A stretch of DNA of 64,000 nt, taken from Natronosalvus halobius. Its GTDB lineage: Archaea > Halobacteriota > Halobacteria > Halobacteriales > Natrialbaceae. The stretch spans positions 1,240,001 through 1,304,000 of the forward strand of contig NZ_CP099997.1 of the NCBI RefSeq assembly GCF_024138145.1, read 5' to 3'. This document shows positions 29,666-57,063 of the stretch, in pieces. The number at the start of each line of letters is the position of its first letter. The first letter of the stretch is position 1. The position numbers and the translations under genes are program-made. The notes below the pieces were generated by a model. That model saw nothing but the letters and a program-made list of their open reading frames with translations. It made no database searches and had not been told where the DNA came from.

Positions 29666-32527
29666 GTGGCTGAGGACGACCGGTCGCCAGCGACAACCAT
29701 CTGCTCGCTGTGTGGCCGAGAGGTCGAGGACTCGTCGACGCCCGAAAAGAAGGCGACGCTCGAGGACGACGCGACGTTCTGCTCGCCAGGGTGTCGGCGC
29801 GTCTGGGAGACACTCGAGCCGGATCCGTCGGCGGATCTCGCGGTGGAATCGGGTCCCGCAGATCCCTCGAGTGGCGCGCACGGTGAACACTTCGAGGCGG
29901 TAGCTGTCGAGACGGGAGACCCTGACGGTGAGCCAGAGGGCCTCCTGGAAGACGTAGGCTCCAACGTCGAGAACGGCGGTAACTCGGACGATGCCGACGG
30001 TGTCGAAACTGCAGGCGAGAAGGAGACTGCCTCGGACGTCGAAGCCACAGCCGGAGCCGAAGTCGAAGCTGAAACCGAAACCGAAACCGAATCCGGGCCC
30101 AAAACTGAATCCGGGGCCAAAACCGAATCCGAAACTGAATCCGAAGCCACGGCCGGAGCCGAAACTGAATCCGAACCCACGGCCGGAGCCGAAAGCGACG
30201 AACAGGACGACCGCCCACCGATACGCACCCATCTCCGGGTCGACGGCATGCACACCGCCACCTGCGAGGCCTACCTCGAGTCCGTCGCGACCGACCTGGA
30301 CGGCGTCCTCGAGGCCGAGGCGAGTTACGTCACCGAGTCGGTTCGCGTCGATCACGACCCCGCGACCGTCGCGCCGGCGGACCTCCAGGACGCCCTGAGC
30401 ATCACGGGGTACACGGCGTACCTCCGGGACGACGCTGGATCACAGACTCAGGCGGACCAGACCGGGAAGAGCCGCCGCTCGCGCGAGATGAGCGGTGTTC
30501 GCAAGCGACGGACCGACGACATGCGCCAGGTCCGGTACGTCCTGGGGGTCGTCTTCGGGTCGTTCCTGCTCTTGCCCTATATCGTGATGCTCTACCCCTC
30601 CTACATGGCGGACATGGCGCCGATCGGCCCGCTCTCGTCGTTCCAGACGATCTTCACCGACGGCGGTATCATGTTCATGCGGGTCTACTTCGTCCTGACG
30701 GGAATTGTCCTCTACGTCACCGGGATGCCACTGCTCCGGGGCGCCTACGTCAGCCTCAAGCTTCGACGCCCGAACACGGATCTGCTCGCGGCGATGACCA
30801 TCGTCGGCGCCTACCTCTACAGCTCCGTCGCGGTCTTCGTGACCAGTCCGAACGTCTACTTCGACCTCGTGCTCGTCGTCGCCTCCGCCGTCATGGGCGC
30901 GATCCTCTACGAGTCGATAGTCAAACAGCGCGCGATGGACCGCCTGACCGAACTCACGATCTCCCAGGTCGACAGCGCCCGCCGGTACGAGGCGGACGGA
31001 TCGGTCACCGACGTCGACGTGGCCGACCTCGAGGCCGGAGACACCGTCCTCGTCAAGCAGGGCGAGCGCATCCCGATCGACGGCGTCCTCGCGGAGGGGA
31101 CCTGCACGGTCGACGAAGCGATCGTGACCGGCGAATCCGTTCCCATCGCCAAAGACGCGGGCGACGAGGTCGTCGGCGGCTCGATCGTGACCGCCGACGC
31201 CGCCGTAATCGAGGTCGACGATCGTGGATCGAGCAGCCTCGAGCGCCTCACCGAAACGGTCTGGGACCTCCAGACCGCCGTCCACGGAACCCAGCGGCGG
31301 GTCGACGACCTGGCCGGCCGACTCGTTCGACCGCTCGTCGGCACCGCAATCGCCGCCGGCATCGTCGCGCTCGTCTTCGGACGCGGTCCAGGCGAGGCGA
31401 CCCTGTGGTCGCTGACGGTCGTCCTGGTCGGCACCCCCTGGCTACTCGGTGTGGCGACGCCCCTGTCGATCGCGACGACCATCGAGGCGGCGATGGAACG
31501 CGGCGTCGTCGTCTTCGACGAGACCGTCTTCGAGCGACTCCGGGCGATCGACACGATCGTCTTCGACAAGACCGGCACACTCACCCGCGGCGAGATGACC
31601 GTCCTGGAGACCGAGGCACCCGACGACTTGCTGAAAGCGGCGGGAGTGCTCGAACAGCGGGCGTCCCATCCCGCTGCGGACGCCATCGCTCGAGCCTACG
31701 CCGTGGGTGGGTCCGACTCGAGCGGTAGCGATCGCGACGACACCGCCACTCGCCCCGATGGCGGTGCGACGGGCGAACACGCTACCCCGAACCGGGTATC
31801 AGACTTCGAGAGCCACGGAAACGCCGTCGAGGGAACCGTCGGCGACGGTCGTGTGCTCGTCGGCCATCCCGACGCGTTCGCCGACCGGGGGTGGACACTG
31901 GGTGAGGACGTCGAAGCCCGCGCGAGCGAGGCGCGCGGCTTCGGGCGCCTCCCCGTCGTCGTCGGTCGAGACGGCGTCGCCGAGGGCGTGATCGTCGTCG
32001 GCGACGAGCCCCGCCCCGCCTGGGAGGAGACGCTCTCGGCGCTCGAGACACGCGGCATGGACGTGGTCGTGTTGACCGGCGACGACCCGGAGGCCACGGA
32101 CGCCTTCGAGGCCCACCCGGCGGTCTCCCACGCGTTCGCGGGCGTCCCGCCCGAGGGGAAGGTTGCGACGGTTCGCCACCTCCGGGAGCGTGGGCGGGTC
32201 GCGATGGTCGGCGACGGGACGAACGACGCGCCCGCGCTGGCCGAGGCGGACCTCGGGATTTCGCTGGGGAGCGGCACCGACCTGGCTTCGGACGCCTCCG
32301 ACCTGGCGATCGTCGAAGACGACCTCGCGTCCATCGAGACGGCGTTCGAACTGGCCGCGGCTGCCAGCAAACGGGTCGAGCAAAACGAGCGCCTCGCCTT
32401 CTCGTACAACGTGCTCACGATCCCCGCCGCCGCTGCAGGACTGTTGAATCCGCTCGTGGCGATCCTGGCGAGCGTCGTCGGGCTCGGCCTGCTGGGCGGG
32501 AATTGCCTCCGTTCGCTCCTCGAGTAG
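29666..32527 (+). CDS. P1B-type heavy-metal ATPase with non-canonical TPW motif
   Basis: Cation-translocating P-type ATPase of 953 residues, GTG start at 29666. Order: N-terminal Cys4 site (C13, C16, C39, C43); acidic low-complexity linker (about 60-185, ETETETESGPKTES-like repeats); a ferredoxin-like metal domain (about 187-255) where the usual GMxCxxC reads GMHTATC, so one Cys is lost. The ATPase core has TGES (488-491), phosphorylated Asp634 in DKTGTLT, a Ser-His-Pro (about 672) and GDGTNDAP. The transmembrane motif that is CPC in Cu/Zn pumps is GTPWLLGVATP (590-592 = TPW), and the terminal MxxSS is absent, while YN (SYNV) is kept. The N-terminal Cys site resembles FixI/CopA2-like pumps. 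Metal specificity cannot be deduced. Confidence 0.9.
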   Translation: MAEDDRSPATTICSLCGREVEDSSTPEKKATLEDDATFCSPGCRRVWETLEPDPSADLAVESGPADPSSGAHGEHFEAVAVETGDPDGEPEGLLEDVGSNVENGGNSDDADGVETAGEKETASDVEATAGAEVEAETETETESGPKTESGAKTESETESEATAGAETESEPTAGAESDEQDDRPPIRTHLRVDGMHTATCEAYLESVATDLDGVLEAEASYVTESVRVDHDPATVAPADLQDALSITGYTAYLRDDAGSQTQADQTGKSRRSREMSGVRKRRTDDMRQVRYVLGVVFGSFLLLPYIVMLYPSYMADMAPIGPLSSFQTIFTDGGIMFMRVYFVLTGIVLYVTGMPLLRGAYVSLKLRRPNTDLLAAMTIVGAYLYSSVAVFVTSPNVYFDLVLVVASAVMGAILYESIVKQRAMDRLTELTISQVDSARRYEADGSVTDVDVADLEAGDTVLVKQGERIPIDGVLAEGTCTVDEAIVTGESVPIAKDAGDEVVGGSIVTADAAVIEVDDRGSSSLERLTETVWDLQTAVHGTQRRVDDLAGRLVRPLVGTAIAAGIVALVFGRGPGEATLWSLTVVLVGTPWLLGVATPLSIATTIEAAMERGVVVFDETVFERLRAIDTIVFDKTGTLTRGEMTVLETEAPDDLLKAAGVLEQRASHPAADAIARAYAVGGSDSSGSDRDDTATRPDGGATGEHATPNRVSDFESHGNAVEGTVGDGRVLVGHPDAFADRGWTLGEDVEARASEARGFGRLPVVVGRDGVAEGVIVVGDEPRPAWEETLSALETRGMDVVVLTGDDPEATDAFEAHPAVSHAFAGVPPEGKVATVRHLRERGRVAMVGDGTNDAPALAEADLGISLGSGTDLASDASDLAIVEDDLASIETAFELAAAASKRVEQNERLAFSYNVLTIPAAAAGLLNPLVAILASVVGLGLLGGNCLRSLLE

Positions 32528-32669: not shown

Positions 32670-33029
32670 ATGGCACCACACGTGTACACTAAAATCGGAG
32701 GACGGAAAGCTGTCGAATCGGTCGTCTCGGACTTCTACGACAAGGTTCTCGCAGACGACCAGCTCGCGGGCTACTTCGACGGCTACGACCTGGAGGAACT
32801 GTACGCCCACCAGGTCCAGTTCATCAGTTCGGTGGCCGGCGGACCCGTCACGTACACGGGCGCGGACATGCGCGAGGCGCACGCGGATCTGGATCTCGAC
32901 CCTGCCGATTTCGACGCCGTCGCAGCCTATCTCGAGACAGCCCTCTTCGATAACGGCGTCGACGAGGACCACGTCGAGGCGATTCTCGCGGCGGTCGCCG
33001 AACTCGAGGAACCGATCCTCGGTCAGTGA
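32670..33029 (+). CDS. Group I truncated haemoglobin
   Basis: Heme protein of 119 residues with the 2-on-2 globin fold. N-terminal HVYTKIGGRKAVESVV and DFYDKVLADD correspond to helices A/B (Tyr23 is a candidate B10 ligand-stabilising residue). AHQVQFIS marks helix E, and GADMREAHADLDLDPADF contains the likely proximal His71. Such proteins bind O2 or NO and are often NO dioxygenases. It is a single gene. The promoter region contains the palindrome GGTTCGAACC at 32638-32647 and a TATA-like GTAAAATA unusually close to the ATG. Confidence 0.92.
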   Translation: MAPHVYTKIGGRKAVESVVSDFYDKVLADDQLAGYFDGYDLEELYAHQVQFISSVAGGPVTYTGADMREAHADLDLDPADFDAVAAYLETALFDNGVDEDHVEAILAAVAELEEPILGQ

Positions 33030-51851: not shown

Positions 51852-52250
51852 TCAGGCGTCCCGTTCACTGCACAGCAAGACGGACCGGTTCGTGTTGAGA
51901 AACACGCCCTGAGCCACGCTGCCGAACAGCGCCTTTCCTGCCGGCGACCGTTTTCGACCGGCGATCGTAATGACGTCCGCCTCGTGTTCGTCCGCGGCGT
52001 CGAGAATTTCGTCGACGGGATTCCCACTTCGGCCCTCGACCCCGACATCGAACCCAGCGGCCTCGAGCACCGCCTTCGCTCGACGGACAGCACCGAGCTG
52101 TGTGACGGACGCCCCTTCGGGGTTATCGGTGAAGATGTGGACGACTCGCACTCGCGTCGACGCTGACTCCAGTTCAAGGCCGACGATGGACTCTGCCTGT
52201 GCGACTGCCCGGTCCTCGTCTCGATCGACTGCCAGTAGGATCGTGGACAT
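51852..52250 (-). CDS. UspA family universal stress protein
   Basis: Protein of 132 residues with the UspA fold: first strand with STILLAVDRDEDRAVAQAES, helix SVTQLGAVRRAKAVLEAAGF, DADEHEADVITIAGRKRSP, and the C-terminal ATP-binding-type loop G-x-A-LFGSVAQGVFLNTNRSV. The loop reads GKALFGSVAQGV, close to the ATP-binding G2xG9xS/T type. The ATG at 52250 is chosen (MSTILLAVDRDED). TATA-like CTATTTG about 32 nt upstream. Confidence 0.92.
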   Translation of the reverse strand: MSTILLAVDRDEDRAVAQAESIVGLELESASTRVRVVHIFTDNPEGASVTQLGAVRRAKAVLEAAGFDVGVEGRSGNPVDEILDAADEHEADVITIAGRKRSPAGKALFGSVAQGVFLNTNRSVLLCSERDA

Positions 52251-54132
52251 AGGTAGACAGTCACGATCCGACGACAAATAGGTACGGCCGAACGGTATCT
52301 GTCCGGAACACGATCCGTTCGCCACCCGGACGAAACGTGCTGGAACGACCGACTCCGGGTATCGCGGTAGCCACGACGTCCGGCGATAGTTCCGGCGATA
52401 CTCGAGCTATCAGCTTCCTTCTCACCAGGCCAAATTCAATATACCATTATGGAGTTTATGAGTTGTACCTCAGTCTTCGATTAGACAGGAATTACTGATG
52501 ATTTGTCAAGATGAGCTCACTATTCCCACCAGCCCGCCCCAATTTCACCGGGGTTGAGGGACGGTTTCGAGGCGACCGAACGTCGGTGTATTCCCAACCC
52601 GCCGGGCGGGCTGAGGCGGCAAACTGCCCGAAACAACCAGGACGAGCAGCGATCGAGAGTCGGGACCGGACGAGACAATTTCGTTCCCCTCGATATTCAC
52701 GCTTGCCGTTCTAGGAAGTACATCGACCACTTCTGTCGCCAGTTCCCAAGCCAGCGCGAGATGAATCGTGCGTCATCAACGGACGAAACCGCCTGTAGCT
52801 GGACGCGCCACACCACCAGGACCAATCGGGCCCGTTGGGCCGCACCGTGTCATCGAACACCTTCACGGGCCGCGTGAGCGGTTCTCTGACCCAGAGAGCG
52901 TTCCGAGACCGATCCACCCGAAGCGGCTTCTCCACCCCGTGCACTAACGTCCACACGCGCTGGTACGGAACCCAAAGGCAGGTTCGAGCGCCTCGAGGTG
53001 AACTGGCCCGGTCGAAGGACCCTCTCGATACCAAAGACGTACTAATTCCACCAGCAAAACGATCAAATCTGGCCGCAACTGGGCGCACTCCTCGAGGGGT
53101 TTCGCTGTGGTCAAGAGCAAGTGTAGCGGCTGTAGCGAAAGCGAATGTTGAGAGACAGCGACACGATCAACCAGTACTTCCAGGAGAGTGATTGAACCCG
53201 TTACCCAATACGGGGTGAATCCCCATCTCAGACGGTCGCAATTGTTGCTCCGGCCAAACGGAGGCTCCTCGACATCGATACATCGTTGTCTGAGCTACCC
53301 TGGTGTCGTAATCGATTCCAGACGACGCCACCCGTTGATCGAACGTCCCCTCCGCCTCTTCGCTACATTTCCCGACGAAAGCCCTCTCGAAGAACGTCAA
53401 CCGAGCCTTCGTCCTGGAGAACAGGTCGTTTTCGATCTCCAGGCGTGCTGGAACGACAGTGTCCTAATTGCGACACGCAATCCGAATCCGTGGGTTCCGT
53501 TCCGTCTTCTCTCAGACGCTCGAGTCCGCTCGGCAGATGGACGCACCCTCTCGATAGCGGAGTGATGTGCGAACACGGCCAGCTTGCGGTATGTCCGACC
53601 CACGACCGCTCGTCTCTCGACTTTGAACAAGCGACCTGGCCCTCTATTGCTCGTTGTCGAAGATGGATACATCACGACTTCGGACGGACACGTTCATCGA
53701 CGCGCCTCGACCCGGGTCTGAACGACCTTCGACCACCGTTCGACCACACCTCCTGGAGCGGACTCCGCCACCGGTCATCATCGGCTGGATCGACGCCACA
53801 CTATTTATCAGAATATGTAGAATTCCCCGCTCCGGATAATTAGAGATTCGGGACACAATCGACTCGGACTCGGTAGTGAAGCACCCCGGTTCAGTTTCGT
53901 CATGGACGACTTACCAGGCTAGCCTTCGTATGCTGCAGCAATTCGTTGAATTCTAATCTTGATCAACATACTCATTCTGACCAATCTCTAATCCCAAACT
54001 ACAGCATATGCTATCCGCAAATATAGAATTGCATACTCATAGTTAGGTATAATCCAGGCATCCATGTTTAGATAAGGTCTCTTATCTCGAGTAATAGCTA
54101 GATTGATTATCCTCGAGTACGGACCGTCTTCC
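52251..54132. other. Gene-poor 1.9-kb region before recombinase pair
   Basis: No protein gene that I can support. Open frames of 60-190 codons exist (for example 53188-53565 plus, 52711-53088 minus), but none shows a family motif and they overlap on both strands. AT content rises at about 52400-52510 and strongly at 53930-54120, unlike the rest of the window. A 10-bp inverted repeat (CAGCCCGCCC at 52530-52539 with its complement at 52604-52613) is present. The whole looks like decayed or imported DNA next to a tyrosine recombinase. I see no intact transposase or tRNA. Confidence 0.55.
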
Positions 54133-54525
54133 ATGAGTGACGATCCGGATTCGGAGACCGTCGTCGTCAGAACGTACGTCCCTAGATACCAGAAAGAAAA
54201 CTGGGCCACCCACGCTGACGAACTCGACATGAGTCAGAGCGAGTATGTAAGAAGTATGGTACAATCCGGTCGGAAGGGGTTCGAATCGTTAACAGCGGAG
54301 ACCCCTTCTCCGGACGCTACCCCTGGGGGTAGCGGTCTCGAAACACAGGTCCTCGACTTACTTCGTTCCGGGACCTATTCGTGGGAAGAATTGCTCGATG
54401 CAGTGAGCGACGACATCGAGTCTCAGCTCGACGAGACGCTCGAGCGCCTCCAGGCGACGAACCGGGTTCGATACAGCGGCCGCCACGGCGGATACACCCT
54501 GAGCAGTGATACCGATGGCAACTGA
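54133..54525 (+). CDS. DUF5805-type small RHH-like protein
   Basis: Protein of 130 residues. The N-terminal half (TVVVRTYVPRYQKENWATHA, DELDMSQSEYVRSMVQSGRK) has ribbon-helix-helix character. The C-terminal half looks like a winged-helix unit (LLRSGTYSWEELLDAVSDDI; ETLERLQATNRVRYSGRHGG). I recall the haloarchaeal family as DUF5805, whose gene regularly precedes a tyrosine recombinase. Here it overlaps the recombinase gene by 11 nt, so the two proteins are coupled. Its upstream region is AT-rich. It may bind DNA at the recombination site or regulate the pair. Confidence 0.85.
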   Translation: MSDDPDSETVVVRTYVPRYQKENWATHADELDMSQSEYVRSMVQSGRKGFESLTAETPSPDATPGGSGLETQVLDLLRSGTYSWEELLDAVSDDIESQLDETLERLQATNRVRYSGRHGGYTLSSDTDGN

Positions 54526-55555
54526 CCGAGCGAGCGAGCCAGCCACGATCGAGGAGCCAGTTTCCTACTTCCTCGAGGAGCAACGCTATCACGGCAAGAG
54601 CGAGCGGACGGTCGAGGCCTACGAACGCGTTCTCGGGCAGTTCGAGACGTTCGTCGAAGACGAGAGCGGCGTTACGCCTGCGAACGCGACTCGCCGGGAG
54701 TGTATGGCCTGGGTACACTCCCTGCGAGGCCACCTCGAGCCGAGTACGATCGCCACCTACGCCTCCTACGTCCACCGATTTTACGACTACATGACCCGCG
54801 TCGAGGCCTTCGAGGGGAATCCGATGTCGCTGGTCGTCGAAGAGATGAACGAATCGATCGACACGAACCCGACCAGACGTGAGATCTCGATCCCCGAAAT
54901 GCGATCGTTCGTCGGAGACCTCGCTCATCCCCTCGAGCGCGCCGTGGTCGTCACCCTCCTCAAGACGGGAATGCGTGTCGGCGAGCTCTGTAACCTGGAT
55001 CTACGCGATCTGCACGCTAATTTCGAGGCGGTCGACCTCGAGTGGACGCCACGAGTTCAACTCGAGGCCCGTCCTGACTCGCTGTACGTCGACGAGAAAC
55101 CGATACGCGGCGCGGTCGTCAACGGAGAGGAACGGACGGCATCGAACAAGCGCAAGCGCGGAACCGTGATTCCAGTCGATTCGGAGCTACAGGCGGTTCT
55201 CGCCGAGTGGTTGGCGATTCGACCAGACGCGCGGTCGACGGCCGAACCGCTCTTCCTCGACACCGGCGACAGCTGGGGCCAGCGCCTCGAGCCCTCGGAC
55301 GTGCGCTATATTGTCGAGGAACGTGCTCGAGCGCGGGGCTGGTATCGAACGGGCGGCGGTGCGAGCGAGAACGTGACGCCCCACTACTTCCGGCACTTTT
55401 TCACGACCCATCTCCGCGATCGGACGGGTGATCGCGGGGTCGTCAAGTACTTGCGGGGGGACGTCGCGAGTGACGTGATCGACACGTACACCCACGATTG
55501 GGGTGATCAGGTTCGAACGGTGTATGAAGCGAACATCTACTCGCTGGGGGTCTGA
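54515..55555 (+). CDS. Tyrosine recombinase (XerC/D-like integrase)
   Basis: Site-specific recombinase of 346 residues. The N-terminal SAM-like DNA-binding domain (about 12-100, RYHGKSERTVEAYERVLGQF) precedes the catalytic domain with Arg in TGMRVGEL (about 158), HYFRHFF (HxxR, about 290) and the nucleophilic Tyr in VIDTYTHDW (about 330). The ATG at 54515 overlaps the DUF5805 gene. It resembles haloarchaeal XerA-like enzymes more than phage integrases, and no att site or tRNA is visible. A chromosome-resolution role or a remnant of an integrated element are both possible. Confidence 0.9.
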   Translation: MATDRASEPATIEEPVSYFLEEQRYHGKSERTVEAYERVLGQFETFVEDESGVTPANATRRECMAWVHSLRGHLEPSTIATYASYVHRFYDYMTRVEAFEGNPMSLVVEEMNESIDTNPTRREISIPEMRSFVGDLAHPLERAVVVTLLKTGMRVGELCNLDLRDLHANFEAVDLEWTPRVQLEARPDSLYVDEKPIRGAVVNGEERTASNKRKRGTVIPVDSELQAVLAEWLAIRPDARSTAEPLFLDTGDSWGQRLEPSDVRYIVEERARARGWYRTGGGASENVTPHYFRHFFTTHLRDRTGDRGVVKYLRGDVASDVIDTYTHDWGDQVRTVYEANIYSLGV

Positions 55556-55677
55556 ACGAGCGATTTGCGGAGTTTCGAGTTATGAATCGAACCATAGCTG
55601 TTGGGTTATTGTCCATACTGCCCGGCCCACAACAGACAGATAAATCGTATCCTGCTATATTGAACTCGGGCCGAATT

Positions 55678-57063
55678 TTACCGTTCGGTGACCCCCCGTT
55701 CCACGACGAGGGCCCGAAGATCGTTGACGTTCGTTCCGGTCGCTCCCGTCCGAATCAGCGCGTTCGCCGACCCGAGCGCCGGATAGGCGTCGTTTCGCTC
55801 GAGCGCTCGTCGCGCCTTCAGCGGATCGAGTGATCCATCGCGGCTGACGGTTCGCTGGTCGGCGATGGCTCCCGCTGCGTCCGTCGCACCGTCGATACCA
55901 TCGGTGTCGACGCTGGCGACGACCGCCGGGACCGCGAGTTCGAGCGCCCCACCGAGGACGAACTCCTGGTTCGGGCCGCCTCGTCCGTGATTGTCTACGA
56001 GCGTGACAGTGGTTTCCCCGCCCGAGAGGACGACAGCCGGTGGCTCGACTGGCGTCCCCGTGCGGGCAATTTCCTCGGCAATGGCGACCTGTGTTTTCGC
56101 GGCCTCGCGTGCTTCGCCTCGGACGGACGAAGAGAGTACAAGCGGCGCGTAGCCGCGGTCGGCGGCGACCTCCTGGGCGGCTTCGAGTGCCGTGTTCGCA
56201 TTGGCGACGACGTGGCAGTCGATGTCGTCGAACACCGCATCGTCGCCGGTCGGCGTCTCTCGTTCGTTGCCGTCGGCCCCGCGTCGGAGGTGCTCGAGGA
56301 TCGGTTCCGGAGCGTCGATTCCGTAGCGATCGAGCACGTCGAGCGCGTCCGCGAAGGTCGTCGAGTCGGGCGAGAGCGGCCCGCTGGCAATCACGCTTGG
56401 ATCGTCTCCGGCGACGTCACTGACGAGCAACCCGACGACGGTCGCAGGAGCCGCGGCGCAGGCGAGATTCCCGCCCTTGAGCCTCGAGAGGTGTTTGCGG
56501 ACGGCGTTGATCTCGTCGATGGATGCGCCGCTCGCGAGCAGTGCCTCGGTAGTCTTTCGGAGGGCCTCGAGCGAGAGACCGTTCGCCGGGGCTGGAAGAA
56601 GGGAGCTACCGCCCCCGGTGAGACAGCCAAGGACGAGGTCGTCCGGGCCGGCGTCCGCGGCCCGTTCGAGGACTGTGTTCGCCCCTTCGACCCCGCGTTC
56701 GGAAGGGACGGGGTGATCGCCGGGTAGCACGTCGATACAGTCTGTCTCGACGGGGTCGTCGGTGACCACGACGCCGCCGTCGATCCGATCCCCCAGCAGG
56801 GATTCGAGCGCCGCGGCCACGTGTCCCGCCGCGTTTCCGCCGCCGAGAACGACTATGTCGTCGAACGCCTCGAGGTCGTAGGTCCTCGAGGGGCCGGTGA
56901 CAGGACTGACGGTGAGGTGCTCGTCGTCGAGTGCGAGTGCGTCGGAGACGACCCGTCGCGGGTGGGCCGCGTCGATACCCGCGACCAGACAGTCCAGGGC
57001 GACCGCTCGCGACTTGCTCGAGGCGAGTGCGTCGTAGTCCTCGATGGAAACGTGTGCGGTCAT
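55678..57063 (-). CDS. Glycerate 2-kinase (DUF4147/MOFRL)
   Basis: Two-domain enzyme of 461 residues forming 2-phosphoglycerate from glycerate, as in the semiphosphorylative Entner-Doudoroff branch or serine/glycine use. The N-terminal GCKII domain contains VVLGGGNAAGHVA (about 71-83), GDHPVPSERGVE and CLTGGGSSLLPAP. KHLSRLKGGNLA holds the active-site Lys. The C-terminal MOFRL domain contains VVLSGGETTVTL, GGPNQEFVLGGA and SVDTDGIDGATDAAGA. It is complete and monocistronic. The ATG is at 57063. Confidence 0.95.
   Translation of the reverse strand: MTAHVSIEDYDALASSKSRAVALDCLVAGIDAAHPRRVVSDALALDDEHLTVSPVTGPSRTYDLEAFDDIVVLGGGNAAGHVAAALESLLGDRIDGGVVVTDDPVETDCIDVLPGDHPVPSERGVEGANTVLERAADAGPDDLVLGCLTGGGSSLLPAPANGLSLEALRKTTEALLASGASIDEINAVRKHLSRLKGGNLACAAAPATVVGLLVSDVAGDDPSVIASGPLSPDSTTFADALDVLDRYGIDAPEPILEHLRRGADGNERETPTGDDAVFDDIDCHVVANANTALEAAQEVAADRGYAPLVLSSSVRGEAREAAKTQVAIAEEIARTGTPVEPPAVVLSGGETTVTLVDNHGRGGPNQEFVLGGALELAVPAVVASVDTDGIDGATDAAGAIADQRTVSRDGSLDPLKARRALERNDAYPALGSANALIRTGATGTNVNDLRALVVERGVTER

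Follow-up and report, generated by a model that had tools for sequence, protein, structure and literature searches.

P-type ATPases are thought to become phosphorylated only with their cargo bound, and KdpB of the KdpFABC complex (P1A) is an example of a P-type ATPase that drives transport through a partner. What the entry Met, CPC, YN and MxxSS do in CopA is described in two papers (PMC9433437; PMC7558416), the second of which, a review, holds that phosphorylation of prokaryotic CopA requires both membrane Cu sites to be occupied first. P1B-5, P1B-6 and P1B-7 are named as further subgroups beyond the Cu and Zn types in PMC4932525 and PMC7558416. Our literature search, which covered work other than the main classification of Smith et al. 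2014 (where an earlier mention is possible), returned no description of an SPW or TPW group of P1B ATPases and no paper pairing a P-type ATPase with CPC and SPW.

Here, we analyse a P1B ATPase gene from the haloarchaeon Natronosalvus halobius, located in a window of 64,000 nucleotides (the whole stretch of DNA under study; contig NZ_CP099997.1, positions 1,240,001 to 1,304,000), in which the CPC position of membrane helix M4 reads TPW, together with its relatives carrying the motif [S/C/T/A/N]-P-W, hereafter xPW. A natural clade without the Cu sites but with an intact catalytic core would allow a direct test of uncoupling the ATP cycle from cargo. In addition, automatic names such as 'cation-translocating P-type ATPase' are unsafe for the xPW group.

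Methods

A genome scan of bacteria and archaea yielded 80 haloarchaeal loci, which are the best 80 of 546 confirmed places, so that locus numbers are no measure of frequency. Two further genome samples contributed 30 + 30 loci, all of them xPW. A total of 172 ORFs was reduced, by removing exact duplicates, to 148 distinct P-type ORFs, which were aligned and which comprise, by M4 motif, 64 SPW, 17 CPW, 7 TPW, 3 APW, 1 NPW, 49 CPC and 7 CPH. Residue counts compare the 92 distinct xPW proteins with 44 CPC relatives; rows belonging to other P1B families (7 CPH, 5 CPC) were left out, as were gaps from the denominators. For trees and conservation, rows that were short or more than 85% identical were dropped, and helix identities were compared at matched divergence, that is, between pairs whose core identity is 48-62% (1059 within xPW and 413 within CPC relatives). 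Gene neighbours were surveyed in 37 stretches of CPC relatives longer than 9 kb and in 50 xPW stretches. The matching of xPW residues to CopA sites rests on structure-database matches and our own alignment. In-frame stops flagged in a third paralogue were checked in five loci (L181-L185) and set aside, as the flags looked like ordinary gene ends: in each, roughly 100 codons of retrieved sequence follow the stop of the long frame, and the upstream stops precede the protein.

The ATPase gene and its cytosolic domains

The gene and the features of its product outside the membrane path are listed below.

29666..32527, + strand: xPW-type P1B ATPase gene, 953 aa, GTG start, open frame, with Pfam and NCBIfam matches and clade membership by tree
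29702..29794, + strand: N-terminal Cys4 (C13, C16, C39, C43), zinc-finger-like, from sequence; the fifth Cys of CPC relatives (C40) is Ser here
29846..30217, + strand: acidic, repetitive low-complexity linker, about residues 61-184, from tandem repeats, dN/dS and low pLDDT
30221..30430, + strand: HMA domain, residues 186-255, loop GMHTATC with the single Cys C200, from Pfam and alignment
31103..31105, + strand: Cys480 of the A-domain, invariant in xPW (91/91) and found in 1/44 CPC relatives
31127..31138, + strand: TGES dephosphorylation motif, TGES in 88/91 and TGE in 91/91 xPW (gaps excluded)
31565..31579, + strand: DKTGT phosphorylation motif, 92/92 xPW
31667..31672, + strand: HP nucleotide-binding motif, 92/92 xPW
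32210..32227, + strand: GDGTND hinge motif, 92/92 xPW

The protein carries the Pfam domains HMA, E1-E2 ATPase and Hydrolase, and it scores 384.9 against TIGR01525 (NCBIfam heavy-metal P-type ATPase), whose cut-off is 346.25. With DKTGT, TGE, GDGxND and a HAD-type P domain all present it is a P-type ATPase, and by its MA/MB helices, HP motif and TIGR01525 score over cut-off it is a P1B (heavy-metal) ATPase by descent. Of the features that mark P1B-1 Cu(I) ATPases, YN in M5 is present, and CPC in M4 and MxxSS in M6 are absent. The initial annotation had reported TPW in place of CPC, a final helix lacking MxxSS, the loss of one of two HMA Cys, intact DKTGT, TGES, HP and GDGxND motifs and an N-terminal Cys4 site with an acidic linker. 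Each of these observations was borne out: TPW occupies residues 590-592, M6 reads S936-x-x-G939-L940, C200 is the remaining HMA Cys, the hinge is GDGTND, and the four N-terminal Cys are spaced C13-x2-C16-x22-C39-x3-C43 ahead of the repetitive linker. The YN pair of M5 (residues 914-915), absent from that annotation, is retained as well. Judging by its motifs, the xPW protein would hydrolyse ATP.

Ahead of the membrane part, the Cys4 residues are kept across the xPW clade (92 aligned members), whereas position 40 is Cys in 43/43 CPC relatives and Ser in 81/90 (Cys in 8/90) xPW, gaps excluded. The linker has a dN/dS of 0.49 against L086 and 0.32 against L087, and pLDDT falls below 50 at residues 57-178 of the AlphaFold2 model. 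The first HMA Cys (197) is found in 43/43 CPC relatives versus 10/90 xPW, and Cys200 is retained in 85/90 xPW. PF12156 (ATPase-cat_bd) has no match in the window protein at E 0.1, and among the six proteins scanned it matches, below cut-off, two CPC relatives and one CPW member. Besides Cys480 of the A-domain, H540 has been gained (92/92 xPW versus 23/44 CPC relatives). A coupled pair C200-C480 was considered and dropped, as rows that lack C200, L045 and L151 among them, still have C480.

AlphaFold2, run on 35 aligned members, predicts the expected eight helices with a break in M4 at 590-593 (mean pLDDT 77). The top Foldseek match is the E2P structure of LpCopA (4bbj; TM-score 0.79 on target), and KdpB structures appear as remote matches.

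Four genes of the window genome have an E1-E2 ATPase domain above cut-off. The tree places the other three, L081 (CPC, another family), L082 (CPH, CopB-like) and L083 (CPC, CopA-like), outside the group of xPW and CPC relatives, so that the CPC sister type is absent from this genome as sampled.

Replacement of the membrane metal path

Five features lie along the membrane path.

30527..30598, + strand: MA helix, with Met299 and Met302 of CPC relatives replaced and class-specific Y291, F297, F300 and P304
30776..30778, + strand: T371 at the position of the Cu(I) entry Met, by alignment equal to M158 of AfCopA and M148 of LpCopA
31433..31441, + strand: TPW at the CPC position of M4, from sequence and alignment
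32405..32410, + strand: YN of M5, kept, Y914 in 91/92 and N915 in 92/92 (xPW alignment)
32471..32485, + strand: S-x-x-G-L of M6, replacing MxxSS, from alignment

Position 592 is Trp in 92/92 distinct clade members and Cys in 44/44 CPC relatives, and the TPW pattern is therefore not a matter of chance. P591 is likewise found in 92/92 xPW, and position 590, Cys in 44/44 CPC relatives, reads S64 C17 T7 A3 N1 in xPW (S/T/A/N in 75/92). To our knowledge, PW is absent from the M4 motifs of P1B-5, P1B-6 and P1B-7. Met299 and Met302 of MA are near invariant in CPC relatives, while xPW have mostly S/T/A and L; position 371 is Met in 43/44 CPC relatives and Thr in 80/90 xPW; and position 936 is Met in 44/44 CPC relatives versus V57 A14 L9 T5 S3 I2 plus two others in xPW, Met not being among the six commonest residues there in the 92 proteins. 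S939 and S940, each 44/44 in CPC relatives, give way to mixed residues. As read from the alignment, the conserved sulfur ligands in the membrane part of CPC relatives, namely the two MA Met, the entry Met, CPC and the M6 Met, are thus replaced.

Comparing the membrane helices of the 92 xPW with those of the 44 CPC relatives, no newly conserved ligand (Cys, His, Met, Asp, Glu) was found, and the conserved membrane acids D400 (91/91) and E416 (90/91) of xPW are also common to CPC relatives. No further conserved polar residue has been gained in M5 or M6, and M4 has gained only S601, at its cytosolic end. Besides P591, W592, Y914 and N915, G925 and P929 are conserved in xPW.

A haloarchaeal clade of single origin

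The tree of 106 rows, built by a quick method without bootstrap after thinning at 85% identity, separates all 62 xPW rows from the rest by a single branch (SH-aLRT 100), nested inside the CPC relatives, and the same single xPW branch is obtained when the columns of M1, M4, M5 and M6 are removed (SH-aLRT 99). Within the clade residue 590 changes at least 11 times and W592 never, and Cys presence changes six times at 590, three times at HMA position 197 and three times at N-terminal position 40. The subclade that has both HMA Cys197 and CPW (L002, L006, L013, L078) is not basal.

The initial annotation had called for a tree of haloarchaeal P1B ATPases to see whether TPW forms its own clade, and a clade is what emerges, its motif being [S/C/T/A/N]-P-W rather than TPW alone. 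Close homologues with CPC, expected if the change were a recent mutation, were looked for and not encountered, the nearest proteins by tree path being CPW and SPW. The tree thus points to a single, haloarchaeal origin of the xPW clade and not to a recent mutation.

Among 243 genomes sampled across Halobacteriales, 59 have a match above 1050 bits, counted among the matches listed; every such match that was read is xPW, and a few more members score below, although most reach 1050 bits or more. Bit score is no perfect separator, with L162 (SPW) at 931 and L155 (CPC) at 1026. In a phylum-wide sample of 294 genomes, the best match outside the order, among the matches listed and judged by score, has 410 bits.

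Constraint on the membrane helices

At matched divergence, identity within xPW is lower than within CPC relatives in M6 (0.42/0.78, xPW/CPC), M4 (0.52/0.79), M3 (0.34/0.52), M5 (0.54/0.69), M1 (0.48/0.61) and M2 (0.58/0.63), and it is higher in HMA (0.58/0.51), MA (0.60/0.48), MB (0.55/0.51) and the A (0.62/0.54), P (0.66/0.61) and N (0.50/0.41) domains. Relative to the core, the difference has a bootstrap 95% interval of -0.64..-0.51 in M6 and of -0.52..-0.40 in M4, whereas the intervals of HMA, MA, MB, A, P and N are positive. The gap persists with the motif columns removed (M4 0.53/0.79, M6 0.48/0.74), and in a scan of 597 sliding windows the minima lie in M6 and M4. Conservation of the N-terminal Cys region is likewise lower in xPW. 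By these comparisons, M4 and M6 appear as the most relaxed parts of the xPW protein relative to its CPC relatives.

Against its two close relatives, the window gene has a dN/dS of 0.14 and 0.12 over residues 186-953, indicating purifying selection, and of 0.00 and 0.05 over M4-M6. The M4-M6 region is thus held among close relatives, yet is more variable between genera. A decaying gene, to which the ligand loss might point, is a highly improbable explanation, given this purifying selection, the invariant catalytic residues and the wide spread of the clade.

These patterns also bear on whether the protein is still a pump. The initial annotation had proposed either a subgroup or a pump for an unusual ion with an undescribed transport site; the subgroup stands, as the clade above, and the unusual ion finds no positive support, since no new ligand appears and the helices expected to hold a transport site, M4 and M6, show the least constraint relative to the CPC relatives. 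A related and rather unlikely alternative is a pump for a substrate other than a soft metal, such as an organic cation or a large monovalent one, with an aromatic and amide site made of W592, Y914 and N915. The conservation of W592, N915 and P591 (92/92) and Y914 (91/92), the intact catalytic motifs and the MATE exporters within several xPW stretches (6/50) are consistent with such a pump; however, the only other polar gain in M4-M6 is S601, at the cytosolic end of M4, the path-facing M4/M6 columns are otherwise relaxed, and D400 and E416 are shared with CPC relatives.

Gene neighbourhoods

The window copy is flanked by menF on one side and by a globin gene and an ABC transporter on the other, with no metal gene adjoining it.

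32670-33029, + strand: globin gene, bacterial-type (truncated), directly downstream of the ATPase

Among the loci compared, the order menF, xPW, globin, ABC is common only to L086 and L087, from the same genus, and because this synteny is confined to the window and two same-genus genomes, no function was assigned from the globin and menaquinone neighbours. Elsewhere, the window holds a gene for a molybdopterin-binding oxidoreductase (PF00174; 34913-35719, - strand) related to the MsrP/SoxC families and a phage-type integrase gene (54506-55555), around which G+C is lower (0.585 at 52001-56000); this stretch is perhaps an inserted element.

The stretches of CPC relatives contain DsbD-like (25/37), halocyanin-like (13/37) and COX1 (9/37) genes, compared with 0/50, 7/50 and 0/50 in xPW. 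The 50 xPW stretches also include multicopper oxidase (6), CDF transporter (5), PadR (7) and small HMA protein (7) genes. A sulfatase-like gene is near 12/50 xPW (L005, L007, L009, L014, L016, L019, L021, L022, L025, L026, L033, L161), and a MATE exporter gene, on either side and in several lineages, near 6/50 (L018, L023, L030, L156, L179, L180; two queries were run, and either one recovers five).

In 15/128 xPW stretches there is a further P1B gene, whose type is CPH, Zn/Cd-like, CopA-like or CPC; near copies and stretches with short flanks are part of this count. A Zn/Cd-like P1B ATPase gene immediately precedes xPW on the same strand in two genomes, which belong to different families (L162:2675-7355 and L147:4977-10057). 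The coding part of the upstream gene ends 10 bases before xPW on the same strand in L162, which is below the score limit of the 128-stretch count, and in L147 a gap of 92 bases separates the two genes, again on one strand; each pair is possibly one operon.

In Haloarcula marismortui (plasmid pNG600; RR_RS01705, WP_004594578.1) and Halobacterium hubeiense (pSTJ003), a CPW gene belongs to a copper island that also encodes a copper-translocating P-type ATPase, a multicopper oxidase, a plastocyanin-like protein and CtaA. These loci are not independent, given common ancestry and plasmids, and two other plasmid xPW copies inspected have no copper island. Cu(I) or another soft metal might still be moved by a weakened site (Trp cation-pi plus Tyr/Asn) acting as a low-affinity or slow exporter. 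Descent from Cu(I)-type ATPases on the tree, the one subclade that retains CPW with HMA CxxC and is located in copper islands, and other metal pumps as neighbours speak for this explanation, which we nevertheless consider improbable: the Cu(I)-binding Met and Cys of CopA are replaced, residue 590 has drifted between C, S, T, A and N, altering the CPC Cys of AfCopA impaired Cu binding (PMC9433437), and CcoI C417A/C419A gave no transport signal (PMC8475189).

Across lineages, no conserved neighbour gene was found; neighbourhoods differ, and most stretches are without a nearby metal gene. This weighs against an ATPase that, like KdpB, energises a separate channel or carrier subunit, an explanation suggested by the KdpFABC precedent, by the remote matches to KdpB structures and by ATP machinery that is conserved although no transport site is recognisable, and one to which we give very little credence.

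Interpretation

With the ATP machinery intact and the membrane metal path gone, the xPW protein probably has some function other than copper pumping. Our tentative reading, in which we place somewhat less than even confidence, is a non-transporting P-type ATPase that no longer moves Cu(I), has kept its ATP cycle and takes part in metal homeostasis as a regulator or partner. On this reading, CcoI/FixI-like Cu(I) P1B-ATPases would have given rise in haloarchaea to an offshoot that abandoned Cu(I) translocation but retained the conformational machine driven by ATP. Trp592 would sit in the former Cu site, ATP hydrolysis would be released from Cu gating in the membrane, with the cycle controlled by something else, and the protein may exert its effect on metal homeostasis by way of the cytosolic domains and the MA helix, be it as regulator, sensor or energy-giving partner. 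The more specific form, a "pseudo-pump" in which transport is abandoned, the phosphorylation cycle is kept, Trp592 closes the old Cu site and the protein uses ATP to sense or regulate other (neighbouring) P1B pumps, is conceivable, and we hold it with more reserve.

The tentative reading is supported by the single origin, the sulfur-ligand loss, the invariant Trp, the relaxed M4/M6 alongside tighter HMA, MA, A, P and N, and purifying selection, and further by the CopA fold, the neighbouring P1B pumps and the pNG600-type copper islands. Counting against it, M4-M6 have a dN/dS of 0-0.05 between close relatives, P591, W592, Y914, N915, G925 and P929 are kept as in a transporter, and exchange among V/A/L/I/G/T lowers helix identity without proving lost function. 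It is further weakened by the lack of a conserved partner gene and by most stretches showing no metal gene nearby; the window copy has none adjacent.

Comparison with known systems

Like CcoI/FixI, CopA2-type P1B-1 Cu(I) ATPases, the xPW proteins have P1B architecture and a Cys-rich N-terminal region before HMA, and their CPC relatives adjoin DsbD-like, halocyanin and COX1 genes. Unlike CcoI/FixI, they lack CPC, MxxSS and the entry Met, most lack the HMA CxxC, and they show no linkage to oxidase or assembly genes (DsbD-like 0/50, COX1 0/50). KdpB of KdpFABC differs in that no partner subunit gene was found near xPW, whose proteins have MA/MB helices and HMA. CopA (LpCopA 4bbj/3rfu, AfCopA) is the best fold match and has the same catalytic motifs and YN; the xPW protein differs from it in that the conserved membrane sulfur ligands are replaced.
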